A stretch of 26,101 bases of DNA. Origin: a virus. Numbering within the stretch: position 1 is the stretch's first letter; each line of letters starts with the position of its first letter. The position numbers were made by a program, and so were the translations under genes. The notes below the pieces were generated by a model. That model searched no databases. It was given only the letters and a program-made list of their open reading frames with translations, and was not told the origin of the DNA. Of this stretch, positions 1,452 to 7,185 are shown piece after piece. Where the stretch lies: positions 1-26,101 of the IMG/VR virus record IMGVR_UViG_3300032313_000733, one strand, 5' to 3'.

Positions 1452-1874
1452 CTAAAACGGCAATGTATCTTGGGGGAATTCGCTTTCCAAGACTGCCGTT
1501 CCTCCAGATTCGACGACATTAAATCCGTCTGAGCGCTCAAGGACCATGTGTGCGTAGTTGTGAAGTCCCCAATTTTCAACAAGATTACGGATAACAAGTT
1601 CGGTCGAAAGAGTGGAACAGGTGTAAAGGTCAAATTGAACGAATGATGGGCTTGTCTCATCCCACACATGCATGGCGATATGCGAGGTTTCGATTAAGCA
1701 CCCAACAGTCATTCCACGGTTGCCTTCTTTTTCTACATATGCAGCAATCGGTCCAGCGGCAACCTTCATGCCAATTTCTTCGACTAATTTTTGAATCCAG
1801 ATAAGAGCAGCGCTTTTATCCATTGGTGGATTGGTCATGTAGCCATTCAGGAGAAGGTGATTATGTAGTGGCAT
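1452..1874 (-). CDS. speD: S-adenosylmethionine decarboxylase-like pyruvoyl enzyme (SpeD family)
   Basis: The 140-residue product resembles prokaryotic class 1 AdoMet decarboxylases. These proenzymes self-cleave to make a pyruvoyl cofactor and decarboxylate AdoMet for spermidine synthesis. The core IETSHIAMHVW (61-71) carries the predicted cleavage Ser64 and the processing His69. FDLYTC (81-86) carries the conserved catalytic Cys86. The residue before the Ser is Thr rather than the usual Glu, a variant I recall from marine and phage homologues. Some SpeD homologues, including phage ones, have been reported to act on arginine or ornithine instead of AdoMet, so the substrate is open. No other polyamine gene is in the window. 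It follows whiB with a single base between; Met13 is an alternative start. Confidence 0.85.
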   Translation of the reverse strand: MPLHNHLLLNGYMTNPPMDKSAALIWIQKLVEEIGMKVAAGPIAAYVEKEGNRGMTVGCLIETSHIAMHVWDETSPSFVQFDLYTCSTLSTELVIRNLVENWGLHNYAHMVLERSDGFNVVESGGTAVLESEFPQDTLPF

Positions 1875-1875
1875 T

Positions 1876-2271
1876 TTAGTATCCGTTCTTTATTAGCCAA
1901 TGCTTATCTTCGTTTGTGAAAGTTCTATCATAGGACATATTCGCCTTAGAATTTCCCAGGGACTTTCTCTGTTGCAGAATTCCCTTCCGCTTCCTTATGA
2001 AGTCTCTCTGGCGCTCCGTGAATGAGCCCCATATACCGAATGCCTCCCACTCAAGAGCGTAGTTTAAGCACGCGAGACGAACTGGGCAATCTCGGCACAT
2101 GCTAATTGCTTTTAGGTTATTCGCTTGCTCTGCCTTATTCGCACCAAATCCTGGGAACCACCAACTTGTATCTTCTCCTTCGCAAGTTCCGCCACCTGGA
2201 GGAAATGGAGCCGAGGCCCTATTAACGAACATAATAGAACGCTGTATTCTGCTACAAGTATCAGTGGTCAT
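1876..2271 (-). CDS. whiB: WhiB-like iron-sulfur transcription regulator
   Basis: The 131-residue protein has the four-cysteine signature of WhiB-like factors: Cys30, then CRDCPVRLAC giving Cys59, Cys62 and Cys68. These would hold a 4Fe-4S cluster. They are followed by the turn GIWGSFTERQR (79-89) and a basic segment (FIRKRKG) for DNA contact. WhiB proteins bind the primary sigma factor and redirect transcription in actinobacteria. Known phage versions (for example TM4 WhiBTM4) can repress a host whiB and affect superinfection. This is the strongest host marker in the window. The start is supported by GGAGA a few bases upstream. A C-terminal extension of about 35 residues (TFTNEDKHWLIKNGY end) is not part of the core fold. 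Confidence 0.95.
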   Translation of the reverse strand: MTTDTCSRIQRSIMFVNRASAPFPPGGGTCEGEDTSWWFPGFGANKAEQANNLKAISMCRDCPVRLACLNYALEWEAFGIWGSFTERQRDFIRKRKGILQQRKSLGNSKANMSYDRTFTNEDKHWLIKNGY

Positions 2272-3224: not shown

Positions 3225-3631
3225 CGCTCTTCCAGTTCCGTGATATGCAGTACAACTTTTGACTCTCCAGAAACAATCGGCGCTTCAAATATGAGCCGCC
3301 TAACAATCTCTGGACCATCCTCCCAAAGTATACCAGCGTCAACAAGACCGTCTATACAGGCCTTTGCTACAGGGAAATGTCCGCCAGTGTCTGCCTTTCC
3401 TTTACCGTTCCTTCGATGTGGAATGAATCTTATTTCCACAGCCCGAAGGCGTTTTGGTATCTTTTTTGCTGTTGACACAGTCGCCGACGCTTCTCGCCAT
3501 TCTTTGACCAGTTTTGCGCGCTGATAATGATGCAGACTTCTCTCCTTATTCAGGGTCCACATTGTCTCGCCGTAAATCTCAACGACGAATGTCTCCAACT
3601 TCGGCGGTTCCTTACTTTTCTTTGGAGGCAT
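3221..3631 (-). CDS. RusA-like Holliday junction resolvase
   Basis: The 136-residue product resembles RusA-type resolvases common in actinophages. These cut four-way DNA junctions as metal-dependent dimers. The signature is in the second half: KADTGGHFPVAKACIDGLVD (79-98), then AGILWEDGPEIVRRL. It matches the family layout of an Asp block, a Lys two turns on, an Asp in the D-G-L helix and an acidic pair before a final strand. Candidate metal ligands are Asp81, Asp94 and Glu104/Asp105, with Lys90 as the conserved Lys. The N-terminal HHYQRAKLVKEWREA is also typical of the actinophage subgroup. The usual first Asp-x-Asp-Asn is degenerate. The start lies 20 bases inside the CmoA-like gene, and the stop overlaps the HTH gene start. 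Confidence 0.65.
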   Translation of the reverse strand: MPPKKSKEPPKLETFVVEIYGETMWTLNKERSLHHYQRAKLVKEWREASATVSTAKKIPKRLRAVEIRFIPHRRNGKGKADTGGHFPVAKACIDGLVDAGILWEDGPEIVRRLIFEAPIVSGESKVVLHITELEER

Positions 3632-4325
3632 AAATCCCTACAAAGTTAAGATTTTGCCAGAATGGCTGAACCACCGAGAATCCTGCAGCCTTTAGCATGC
3701 GGATGTTCTCTGAGGCACGCAGTGGAACAAGAACATTCTGTAGAGATGAGCGCTTTGCATCTACCTGCTCTTCCGTGTAGCCGTTATCTTTTTTCATTTT
3801 ATGATAAACGCCGACCAGTTGCTCTTGCCCAGCGGCAGTCTCCCCAAGAACTTTTTCCACAAGTATCAGGCAACCGTTCGGGGTCAGGCAATCATAGATT
3901 TGTTTTAATATTTCTTGACGATGTTCCACGGGAACGAATTGAAGAGTGAGCACCGAAAGAACTGTGTCATACCTTAGACGCTGCATTTCTGCTGTTGCAA
4001 TGTCAGCATGGATAATTGTTACACGCTCATCTGCTGAGAACCTTTTTCTTGCCCTGCTAACCATTGCCGTAGATGAGTCGACTCCGACATAGTTGACATA
4101 CATCGATGACCCTAATTCCTTCATCATCAAAGAAATCATTTCGCCGTGCGAGCAGCCAAGGTCGAGAACATACCCGCCATTTGTAACGATTGGTGAAATC
4201 ATTCGGAAGACCATGTCTCTCATGTTCTCGTAACCTGGTATCGAGCGTGAGAGCATGTCGTCAAAGACGCTTGCCACATCATCGTTGAATACCCATTCTT
4301 GCCCAGGCATTATTTCATCTTTCAT
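3612..4325 (-). CDS. cmoA: CmoA-like SAM-dependent enzyme (carboxy-SAM synthase homologue)
   Basis: The 237-residue protein matches E. coli CmoA (247 residues) along almost its whole length as I recall it. CmoA turns SAM and prephenate into carboxy-SAM for wobble-uridine modification of tRNA. Shared blocks are VFDDMLSRSIPGY (20-32), the SAM motif I LDLGCSHG (54-61), the acidic VGVDSS (80-85), VLTLQFVPVEHR (125-136), LTPNGCLILVEK (147-158) and NGYTEEQVDAKRSSLQNV (181-198). The last block includes the region that holds the carboxylate in CmoA. No CmoB is present. The start overlaps the stop of the ParB-methyltransferase gene as ATGA, so the products are likely made together. An ordinary small-molecule or tRNA methyltransferase is the main alternative. 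Confidence 0.85.
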   Translation of the reverse strand: MKDEIMPGQEWVFNDDVASVFDDMLSRSIPGYENMRDMVFRMISPIVTNGGYVLDLGCSHGEMISLMMKELGSSMYVNYVGVDSSTAMVSRARKRFSADERVTIIHADIATAEMQRLRYDTVLSVLTLQFVPVEHRQEILKQIYDCLTPNGCLILVEKVLGETAAGQEQLVGVYHKMKKDNGYTEEQVDAKRSSLQNVLVPLRASENIRMLKAAGFSVVQPFWQNLNFVGIYASKEK

Positions 4326-5869
4326 AATTCCACTCCTAGTCTTTTTGAAAATGCTTCTTTTGCTTCATCCGCCATCCCTAAACGCAATCCTCCTGGATGT
4401 GGGAGGTCAAACTCAAACTCAATCGCCTCCCGCAATTCTTCAACGCTTATTTTCTTTGGGTTAGAGCCGACAGCCTGCACTAGCCCGTTCTTTGCCGTTA
4501 AAAAAGTATCTACTGTTTTGAATCCATTTTGAACCAATTCTTTGAACTCTGTTTGCGTATGGTACTTCTGCACCTTTGGCTTTGCAGCAATATCAGAAAC
4601 AATAATTCTTGGCTCATAGTCGAGTGGGAATCCACCGCTGGAAGTGTCGTGGCCCTTTTTGACATCTCCGCGTGCGTGGTTGTGCCATCTGTCTGATTCC
4701 GTGCAGATTGCAGCCGTGTGTAGTTTGGTATGTGGGGAGCAAAGTGCCGCAACGAGTTTAATAACGTGGATTCTGTCCTGAAGAAATGGAATGCTGTTAA
4801 AAACACTAGCGATGAATATTGAGTCAAACTCTGTCCCATCGGCAACCCGCTTCAAAAAATTCCTCGTGAGTTGTCTTGCGCCTTCAGTATCGATTGTTTC
4901 ATTATCCTTTGCGAGGAAGAATGGCTCAAAGGCAGTGCAGTCAACGCCAAGACGATTGAGAATGTCTGTTTTGTCGCACAAGCCAGCCCCAAAATCAATT
5001 ACTTTTGTCCCGTAATATGCCTTCCACAATTCAACATGCTTAGGGTCATCAAGATGAAAAGCACCGTTCCTGTTGCCAGAAGGAACGAAGTGCCTTAAGA
5101 AGTCTTCCAGAAATGTTGGGGTCAGTATTTCTACTCTTTGATTCTTGCGTCTGAAGGAGTTGTGACGAAGAAGGTCGGCGTAGCGTTCCTGGATATCAAA
5201 GTCCATGGACAAAAGATTGAGCATTGCTGTAACTGCATCTTGGACTTCTGACGGAACCGTTACGACATCAATGAAATCAATTCCTTCCTGGGCTGCAAAT
5301 GTAAGTCGCGCGCGGCCGTTTAGAACATTGAAATCTGGGGTGCAAATCACAGGCATAGGGGGCAACCCGTGTGACTTTATTTGTCCAGCCATGACAATCG
5401 CGTGCTGCTCCATCCATCTTTCATTTTTGCTTATAAGGCGCAAGACAGACTGGGGCTTCATTTTCATTACTGGATACCACTCTGCTGTATCTACTTCTAT
5501 GTCTGGCAGTAGATTTATTTTATTAATCATTTCTTCCATCGAAAAAAGCGACTCTTTCATGTCCGAGGAAGATTGGTTTTTATAAAGGTCGTTTGTGGCG
5601 CGGTTGTATAGCACGTTTATTCCCATACGGCGCTCTACGGGCATTGGGGGTGTCCTAACCACTGGAACGGCCTTTGCGCCCATCCTGGAGGCTACTAGGT
5701 GCCTTTGGTGGCCACTCAGAATCTCTCCGTTTACATCCGCGTAGATTGGCAGGAGCCAGCCAAATTTACGCAGGGATAACTCAACAAGATTTAGGCGCTC
5801 TTCGTCGGCCTTTCTTGGGTTGTAGGCAGACGGACGGAGGTCCTCAATTGGGGTTAGTACGGGCTTCAT
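4322..5869 (-). CDS. Fusion protein: two ParB-like domains plus methyltransferase fold
   Basis: The 515-residue protein starts with a ParB/Srx-type domain (about 1-75): DLRPSAYNPRK, then GEILSGHQRHLVASRMGA. A second, more divergent one lies at about 155-205 (NVLNGRARLTFAA). From about 288 there is a class I Rossmann methyltransferase fold: motif I KVIDFGAGLCD (289-299), an acidic strand end AFEPF (313-317), and the strand-helix FDSIFIASVFNSIPFLQDR (348-366). Its end is NGFKTVDTFLTAKNGLVQAVG (448-468). The (D/N)PP(Y/F) motif of DNA amino-methyltransferases is absent, so base N-methylation is not supported. Overlaps of ATGA link it to the genes on both sides. The substrate is unknown. ParB-methyltransferase fusions occur in phages, but I do not recall this architecture with a CmoA partner. 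Confidence 0.75.
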   Translation of the reverse strand: MKPVLTPIEDLRPSAYNPRKADEERLNLVELSLRKFGWLLPIYADVNGEILSGHQRHLVASRMGAKAVPVVRTPPMPVERRMGINVLYNRATNDLYKNQSSSDMKESLFSMEEMINKINLLPDIEVDTAEWYPVMKMKPQSVLRLISKNERWMEQHAIVMAGQIKSHGLPPMPVICTPDFNVLNGRARLTFAAQEGIDFIDVVTVPSEVQDAVTAMLNLLSMDFDIQERYADLLRHNSFRRKNQRVEILTPTFLEDFLRHFVPSGNRNGAFHLDDPKHVELWKAYYGTKVIDFGAGLCDKTDILNRLGVDCTAFEPFFLAKDNETIDTEGARQLTRNFLKRVADGTEFDSIFIASVFNSIPFLQDRIHVIKLVAALCSPHTKLHTAAICTESDRWHNHARGDVKKGHDTSSGGFPLDYEPRIIVSDIAAKPKVQKYHTQTEFKELVQNGFKTVDTFLTAKNGLVQAVGSNPKKISVEELREAIEFEFDLPHPGGLRLGMADEAKEAFSKRLGVEL

Positions 5870-7185
5870 TGCTCTGTTCTACGGGCGCTCTTGCGCTTTG
5901 AGCGGCGCTGGCGTGTGCTTACCCATGAGTCACCCTGGATATTTAGCGCCTCCATCATTCCGCCACAGACTTCCTCATACGAGAATCCGTGAGCCTTAAA
6001 CATCTCCTCTTCCCATGCATCGAAGTATGAGCGCTCAAACTTAATCTCCCACTTGCCAATGTTGGCGGTGACATTTCTGGCCTTGTCTTCGTCTGTAGAC
6101 TTTCCTTTTTCTTCCTTGATGCCCCAACCAGCAACATCGCTAATCAAATCATCAACATCGTCGCCGCTATAACCAGTTCCATCGAAAGACGACATTGAGC
6201 GGAGCATCTCTGCAAGTTCAACATGGTCGTAAGTGGCGAGGTCTGCAGTTTTGTTGTCAACCAGTACAATCTTTGCGGCAGCCGCTTCATCTAGGTCTAC
6301 AAAGGTCACGGCTATTTCCTTCCAGCCCAACATTTTTGCGGCCTTCCAGGTGTGGTTGCCGACAATGATGGAGTTATCCAATTTGTTTACAACGATTGGC
6401 CTGAACTGTCCGTTCTCTTTAAGTGATTCAGCAATTACCCCAATATCGCCTTGACGGGCATTCATTGGATATGGGAAAACGCTATTTATATCCACGTTGG
6501 TTGTTTCTGTAATAACCGATTTCATCCCAGCCTTTGCAACCGCTTTTTTCTTTGCCGCTGCTTTGCGTGGGCGTGGAGGAATTGCTTTTGCATCAAGAAG
6601 ATTTAGACGGCGACGCAACTCATGAAGAATTGAGTCGTTGTCCTTGTATGCGCCCTCAAAGTCTTTTGACCAATCTGCGTAAACATCGTCGTCCACAAGA
6701 ACTCGATACGAGCCAACACAGATACGAATTCCGTCTCCAATTTTTCCTGTCCGCTCACCTTCTGGCGCGGTGAATTCTCCCATGCCACTCATTAGGGCTT
6801 GAAGTTGGTCAATATCAACACTGGTGAAGCCAGTTCCTTCCAGGTCTGGGAGGCTTGAAAGAAGTTCTAGAAGTTTTGAGTCGTCGTATGCCGAGGAGTC
6901 TGATGTCCTATTGTCGGCAAGAACAATCTTGCGCGCTTCATGCTCGTCGACATCAACCCAAGACACTGCGATTTGGGTCCAGCCAAGGCTTCTTGCGGCA
7001 CGCCATGTATGATTGCCAGCGAGTATTGAGTTGTCTTTTCGGTTGACCACAATCGGCTTGTATTGCCCGTTTACCTCAAGCGATTTCGCAATAGCGTCAA
7101 CATCTCCACGACGCGGGTTTTGGTGATACCCCTTCAAAATAGAGATATCTACGACTTCTGTGTCTACTTTAATTTGTTCTGACAT
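5866..7185 (-). CDS. Tandem duplicated ParB-domain protein
   Basis: The 439-residue protein contains two copies of a ParB/Srx-like domain, about 10-135 and 229-353. Each has an N-terminal strand-Asn-Arg segment (YHQNPRRGD / PMNARQGD), NGQYKPIVVN / NGQFRPIVVN, the core box ILAGNHTWRAA / IIVGNHTWKAA, and a KIVLxDN(R/K)T helix. After each copy comes a similar segment (SYRVLVDDDVYADW / SYFDAWEEEMF), so the duplication seems to cover a whole ParB-plus-tail unit. A Lys/Ala/Pro linker (200-220) separates the units and the C-terminus is strongly basic (RQRRSKRKSARR). ParB folds bind CTP or act as nucleases or DNA adaptors; here DNA targeting for the coupled methyltransferase gene is inferred. AAAGAGG precedes the start. 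Confidence 0.85.
   Translation of the reverse strand: MSEQIKVDTEVVDISILKGYHQNPRRGDVDAIAKSLEVNGQYKPIVVNRKDNSILAGNHTWRAARSLGWTQIAVSWVDVDEHEARKIVLADNRTSDSSAYDDSKLLELLSSLPDLEGTGFTSVDIDQLQALMSGMGEFTAPEGERTGKIGDGIRICVGSYRVLVDDDVYADWSKDFEGAYKDNDSILHELRRRLNLLDAKAIPPRPRKAAAKKKAVAKAGMKSVITETTNVDINSVFPYPMNARQGDIGVIAESLKENGQFRPIVVNKLDNSIIVGNHTWKAAKMLGWKEIAVTFVDLDEAAAAKIVLVDNKTADLATYDHVELAEMLRSMSSFDGTGYSGDDVDDLISDVAGWGIKEEKGKSTDEDKARNVTANIGKWEIKFERSYFDAWEEEMFKAHGFSYEEVCGGMMEALNIQGDSWVSTRQRRSKRKSARRTEQ

Follow-up and report, generated by a model that had tools for sequence, protein, structure and literature searches.

A phage cassette that pairs a CmoA homologue with a ParB-fused class I transferase, a candidate carboxy-SAM module for DNA modification

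Results

The three-gene cassette

The window, by which we mean the whole stretch of DNA analysed (26,101 nucleotides, positions 1 to 26,101 of IMG/VR virus record IMGVR_UViG_3300032313_000733), carries three consecutive open reading frames on its minus strand, embedded in a longer co-directional gene run of a tailed phage (Table 1). They encode a tandem ParB protein, a fusion of two ParB domains with a class I transferase domain, here called PM, and a homologue of CmoA. A preliminary description of this DNA had reported a three-gene row with ATGA overlaps, and both junctions are exactly 4 nt long. It had also listed four ParB-like domains, a class I methyltransferase fold and a CmoA homologue as the third gene. 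All of these are present: Pfam and profile comparisons place two ParB-like domains in the tandem ParB protein and two in PM, the AlphaFold2 model and Foldseek identify the class I fold in PM, and the third gene product matches TIGR00740 (E 6e-51) as well as CmoA structures. The weak promoter that the genes were suggested to share is not supported: there is no sigma-70-like site on the minus strand immediately upstream, and shuffled sequences give as many hits.

Table 1 Features of the cassette and of the gene run in the window
Feature	Position	Strand	Basis
Tandem ParB protein, 439 aa	5866..7185	-	ORF list, Pfam, PHROG
PM, ParB-ParB-class I transferase fusion, 515 aa, PHROG 5475	4322..5869	-	ORF, Pfam, PHROG, AlphaFold2 model
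PM first ParB domain, residues 1-112	5534..5869	-	Family-invariant NPR and SGHQR (P-motif-like)
PM second, degenerate ParB domain, residues 118-240	5150..5518	-	Profile-profile match to first domain
PM class I transferase domain with C-terminal extension, residues 236-515	4322..5164	-	Conserved motifs, AlphaFold2, Foldseek
CmoA homologue, 237 aa, predicted carboxy-SAM synthase	3612..4325	-	Homology, kept cofactor residues
ATGA overlap, tandem ParB gene and PM gene	5866..5869	-	Sequence
ATGA overlap, PM gene and CmoA gene	4322..4325	-	Sequence
S-adenosylmethionine decarboxylase homologue	1452..1874	-	Pfam AdoMet_dc, E 3e-11
WhiB-like regulator	1876..2271	-	

The gene run that contains CmoA also includes an S-adenosylmethionine decarboxylase homologue, which gives this phage two enzymes that alter SAM, and a related gene is found in 6 related loci. 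The presence of a WhiB-like gene in the window implies that the host is probably an actinobacterium.

ParB modules

Similarity to the ParB N-terminal domain is present in the cassette by Pfam, PHROG and profile searches, and the ParB parts match PHROG 498. In the tandem ParB protein Pfam recognizes two ParB_N stretches, and the two repeats, at residues ~1-140 and 222-350, share a mutual identity of 48-50%. PM has one ParB_N stretch by Pfam, below the curated cut-off, and the PM family profile matches Noc, Spo0J and ParB structures with E-values of 4e-7 to 2e-4. In a profile-profile comparison PM residues 118-240 match the first ParB domain (E 5e-9, 96%). R56, part of the P-motif-like SGHQR, is present in every one of the 74 sequences. 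At one locus (L020:390-2585) the ParB partner and PM are fused as one 731-aa protein. This fusion suggests that the ParB partner and PM work together.

The CmoA homologue

Yang et al. (Nat Commun, Dec 2025) reported that phage CmoA supplies carboxy-SAM for DNA carboxymethylation, in which CmoX acts first and CmoY second (PMC12783734). The DNA carboxymethyltransferase activity of CmoX, a cytosine-C5 enzyme recognizable by SPPC and Arg350, is proven, and an amine is then added by CmoY (PMC12783734). Assays in that study showed that Synechococcus phage S-B43 CmoA makes carboxy-SAM, roughly ten times as fast as E. coli CmoA does (PMC12783734).

The window protein is homologous to CmoA over its full length, matching the E. 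coli and H. influenzae CmoA structures across residues 10-235 with E-values of 1e-31 to 3e-35. It retains the equivalents of E. coli CmoA Tyr39 (= Y32), Ser66, Asp89, Asp117, Glu164 and Arg199 (= R192), the last of which forms a salt bridge to the cofactor carboxylate in the E. coli enzyme (PMC3663124). The equivalent of Asn132 is lost, as it is in the proven S-B43 CmoA. On TIGR00740 the window CmoA scores 173.5 bits, under the NCBIfam equivalog cut-off of 193.3. The experimentally proven S-B43 CmoA scores 115.6 bits and also fails this cut-off, which is therefore too strict for phage CmoA; the reading of the low score as 'not CmoA' was dropped after this calibration. Since Arg199 and most of the cofactor-contacting residues are kept and the score exceeds that of the proven S-B43 enzyme, the sequence gives good grounds for predicting that the window CmoA makes carboxy-SAM.

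The transferase domain of PM

The AlphaFold2 model of PM contains a class I domain with a pLDDT of 90. Its nearest structures in Foldseek are small-molecule methyltransferases, with low TM-scores (~0.33-0.46 by query), and no specific functional relative emerges from that search. Four motifs, DFGAG, FEP, NSxPFxxDR and PKxQK, are invariant or near-invariant across 74 PM sequences. The invariant residues are D292, G294 and G296, the pair E315-P316, S359-x-P361-F362-x-x-D365-R366 and P431-K432-x-Q434-K435, and N358 is near-invariant. Three invariant basic residues, R366, K432 and K435, are candidate contacts for the carboxylate.

The transferase domain has no profile similarity to CmoX (hhalign probability 0.1%). 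None of the cysteines is strictly conserved across the 74 sequences, which makes catalysis through the cysteine mechanism of CmoX unlikely. PM matches none of the Pfam DNA-methyltransferase families, and the [DNS]PP[YFW] motif after strand 4 is absent from the PM family. The NSxPF motif occupies the loop after strand 4, as NPPY does in DNA methyltransferases that modify amines, though three residues further along, and this likeness in position is suggestive at most. On the basis of motifs and profiles, the reading of PM as a disguised C5, N6 or N4 DNA methyltransferase was rejected. Other matches are weak: the one to CmoB aligns only motif I, the one to CmoA lies around the cofactor motifs, and there is a weak match to PF13489 (Methyltransf_23) and no Pfam match to PF08003.

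Conservation of the neighbourhood

Searches for PM relatives in IMG/VR gave 384 pattern matches, 333 of which were confirmed, and the best 80 of the 333 were taken on. GTDB genomes contributed 72 loci, mostly in a prophage- or phage-contig-like context, and cultured phages were also searched. At 90% identity the relatives form 77 PM groups, 72 of which have at least 1.5 kb of downstream sequence. The preliminary description had proposed a search of other phage genomes for the three-gene neighbourhood, and the neighbourhood recurs: of the 72 non-redundant loci, 70 have CmoA near PM, almost always directly downstream in the same orientation, and 58 loci have a same-family ParB gene upstream of PM. 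In the two PM loci that lack CmoA, what looks like unrelated DNA follows PM, so that both exceptions look like decayed prophages. The exact 4-nt overlap between PM and CmoA is found in ~19 of 70 non-redundant pairs, well above chance. All 14 isolate phages with a full-length PM, namely Gordonia phage Evaa, Aeromonas phage HJ05 and twelve Pseudomonas phages of the SM1 group, have CmoA adjoining it. When used as a query, the window CmoA matches just 84 of 50,697 phage records. Terminase genes adjoin the cassette in many loci.

Additional genes accompany the cassette in part of the family. In 43 of the PM groups there is a small gene of PHROG 32036, most often placed between PM and CmoA (examples are L155:9576-10061, L012:1755-2234 and L033:2633-3115). 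Its product is HAD-like by the motif DLNxTL, with DxN replacing DxD; this assignment is a reading of the motif, and Pfam gives none. Some phages have a TauD-family dioxygenase between PM and CmoA (L009:8207-8983), and in 15 loci a 2OG-Fe(II) oxygenase from a different family is encoded no more than a few kb away. These oxygenases could possibly tailor the modification further.

PM and CmoX as alternative partners of CmoA

A second survey started from CmoA to avoid the bias of starting from PM. Its 47 non-redundant loci, each with 2.5 kb of flanking sequence in both directions, were sampled by similarity and not at random. PM is present in 20 of these loci, a C5 enzyme in 23, both in 0 and neither in 4; the Fisher test for mutual exclusion gives a p value of 1e-9, to be read with the sampling by similarity in mind. 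Almost all of the 23 C5 enzymes have the CmoX arginine. CmoY is found in 13 of the 23 C5 loci compared to 0 of the 20 PM loci, and otherwise just in loci lacking both (Fisher p 3e-5, similarity-sampled). The HAD-like gene is distributed the other way round, in 11 of 20 PM loci compared to 0 of 23 C5 loci (Fisher p 3e-5, again for similarity-sampled loci). Neither a C5 match nor CmoY is found in the 26-kb window fragment. PF00145 is absent from 17 of 18 PM records, including that of a 78.6-kb close relative, and the few C5 enzymes in the loci collected from PM have an ordinary GN motif.

A quick CmoA tree, in which branches are long, indicates that the partner switches a minimum of ~11 times, with at least 4 switches forced by well-supported branches and the exact numbers unsure. 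The CmoA proteins of Evaa, which has PM, and of Streptomyces phage TurkishDelight, which has CmoX, are 52% identical. In TurkishDelight, CmoX is accompanied by a glutamine-amidotransferase ligase and by two ParB genes, both homologous to the tandem ParB gene of the window (31-43% identity). Homologous ParB genes thus stand beside CmoX and beside PM, and it is mainly the transferase slot that differs. Together with the kinship of the two CmoA proteins, this implies that PM and CmoX occupy the same slot.

Some loci depart from both arrangements. Dickeya phage AD1 is one of the 4 loci with neither enzyme, and its C5 enzyme is located farther off. At two loci, L204 and L036, CmoA has neither PM nor a C5 enzyme within ~6-8 kb; the latter, from Alcaligenes phage Afa-NA1, encodes a DNA adenine methylase and nucleotide enzymes close by. 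These two loci may represent a third type of partner. A Staphylococcus SPbeta-like phage has CmoA beside an HhaI-like C5 enzyme (L193:6675-7682) without the CmoX arginine motif (VGGV), possibly a further variant.

Host genomes

Full-length CmoB is present in 3 of 24 prophage-bearing host genomes and absent from 21 of 24, several of the assemblies being incomplete. Bacterial CmoA scores above the cut-off in 3 of 18 hosts, with the same reservation about assemblies. In most hosts, therefore, the phage seems to bring carboxy-SAM to cells that otherwise lack the pathway. A role in tRNA cmo5U34 synthesis was considered and rejected, since CmoB is missing from most hosts and PM does not resemble it.

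Discussion

The cassette is, on balance, probably a phage carboxy-SAM module in which CmoA feeds PM and PM carboxymethylates phage DNA in place of CmoX. PM itself is most likely a second, non-homologous carboxy-SAM-dependent transferase that acts on phage DNA. The preliminary description had put forward, as a novelty, a system in which ParB modules direct a carboxymethyl (or methyl) transfer, fed by CmoA, to DNA, tRNA or another substrate. A carboxymethyl-transfer system is well supported by the conserved neighbourhood and by the mutual exclusion with CmoX; the general idea is already published (PMC12783734), and a tRNA target is unlikely with full-length CmoB in 3 of 24 hosts.

We propose the following sequence of events. 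The CmoA homologue would convert SAM and prephenate to carboxy-SAM, as its homology to tested enzymes suggests. PM would take the place of CmoX and transfer the carboxymethyl group from carboxy-SAM onto phage DNA, at a position that needs no cysteine nucleophile; this could be an exocyclic amine or another base position, and would not be C5 modified by the CmoX mechanism. The ParB modules of PM and the tandem ParB partner, which may direct the transfer, would bind or clamp DNA, possibly in a nucleotide-gated manner, and bring the transferase to it. DNA modified in this way would be protected from host nucleases.

The use of carboxy-SAM by PM is well supported by the genomic context. DNA is the presumed substrate, favoured because of the ParB fusion, the slot that PM has in common with CmoX, the homologous ParB partners in both types of locus and the adjoining terminase genes. 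The PM domain resembles small-molecule methyltransferases more than DNA methyltransferases and has no known DNA-methyltransferase motif, so that the substrate could also be a nucleotide or something else. One such arrangement would have PM act with carboxy-SAM on a free nucleotide before replication, comparable to the T4 dCMP hydroxymethylase, after which a polymerase incorporates the product. We consider this unlikely. The closeness of the domain to small-molecule methyltransferases in Foldseek would fit it, as would the gene with a phosphatase-fold-like, HAD-like product beside PM in 11 of 20 loci and beside none of the 23 C5-type enzymes. On the other hand, two fused ParB domains and a further ParB partner suggest DNA in polymeric form as the target, CmoX, which acts on DNA, likewise has homologous ParB proteins beside it, and the window has no HAD-like gene.

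It is quite improbable that PM is an ordinary SAM-dependent methyltransferase or a regulator and that CmoA is kept for some other purpose, such as draining SAM against SAM-dependent defences. SAM depletion by CmoA was raised as a possibility by Yang et al. (PMC12783734), but the near-universal pairing of PM with CmoA and the exclusion with CmoX tie the two proteins together. More doubtful still is a use of carboxy-SAM by PM on a protein, for example of the virion or the host, or on a small molecule instead of a nucleic acid; the class I domain is of the small-molecule type, whereas the ParB fusion, the slot common with CmoX and the adjoining terminase genes fit DNA better. Least probable of all is that the cassette modifies host or phage tRNA, with a cmo5U34-like or other carboxymethyl modification fed by CmoA: tRNA cmo5U34 synthesis is the original role of CmoA and PHROG 4752 carries the label 'tRNA methyltransferase', but PM is unrelated to CmoB beyond motif I, the absence of full-length CmoB from 21 of 24 hosts implies that the pathway is absent there, the 26,101-base window contains no tRNA gene, and ParB domains are not known to bind tRNA.

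Beyond the C5 type, the Dec 2025 paper reports no DNA transferase that uses carboxy-SAM, and in a preliminary search its authors found no N6 or N4 carboxymethyltransferases associated with CmoA (PMC12783734). The PM family is numerous, with more than 300 IMG/VR matches, and it fills the same slot as CmoX and swaps with it, which predicts an undescribed modified base. We regard as evenly poised the broader claim that PM founds a second class of DNA carboxymethyltransferases, not homologous to the first and possibly controlled through nucleotide binding by ParB, and that hundreds of phages and prophages, from Actinobacteria, Proteobacteria, Verrucomicrobia, Firmicutes and Bacteroidota, contain a carboxymethylated base other than 5-carboxymethylcytosine (e.g., at an exocyclic amine). 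No DNA chemistry of PM-type isolates was found in the titles and abstracts of the literature, and the cultured PM phages are material in which the modified base can be sought. PM could also become a new tool with which a carboxyl handle is attached to DNA.

Kaljevic et al. (PNAS, Dec 2025) described ParB-Methyltransf_23 (PF13489) fusions as enriched among phages and prophages, and reported that a bacterial ParB-SAM-methyltransferase fusion binds ATP (PMC12704722). Their text makes no mention of carboxy-SAM, as not a single word in it starts with 'carboxy' (PMC12704722), and a PM-type fusion linked to CmoA is not described in the literature searched, which excludes most subscription journals and all preprints and in which a single paper brings CmoA, phage and ParB together. 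What appears to be new here is the ParB-fused transferase that differs from CmoX and the link of ParB-Methyltransf_23 fusions to carboxy-SAM, which would give a likely role to phage fusions whose function was previously open.

Comparison with known systems

The closest system is CmoA-CmoX-CmoY of phage S-B43. Both have a phage CmoA of the same family beside a dedicated transferase, and ParB genes are often near CmoA-CmoX-CmoY (PMC12783734). They differ in the transferase, as PM is a ParB-ParB-class I fusion without C5-methyltransferase motifs or the CmoX arginine, and in the accessory gene, as PM loci lack the CmoY ligase and often have the HAD-like gene instead. The fusions of Kaljevic et al. 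(PMC12704722) likewise join a ParB fold to a Methyltransf_23-like domain and are prophage-enriched, and they very probably include the PM family. In the bacterial CmoA-CmoB pathway for tRNA cmo5U34 a carboxy-SAM synthase is also paired with a user of its product, just as the CmoA homologue adjoins the presumed carboxy-SAM user here, but PM is no homologue of CmoB and most PM hosts lack CmoB. Phage ParB-DNA methyltransferase fusions (PHROG 498) share with PM an N-terminal ParB domain followed by a methyltransferase; unlike them, PM has no DPPY-type motif, belongs to another transferase family and is tied to CmoA.
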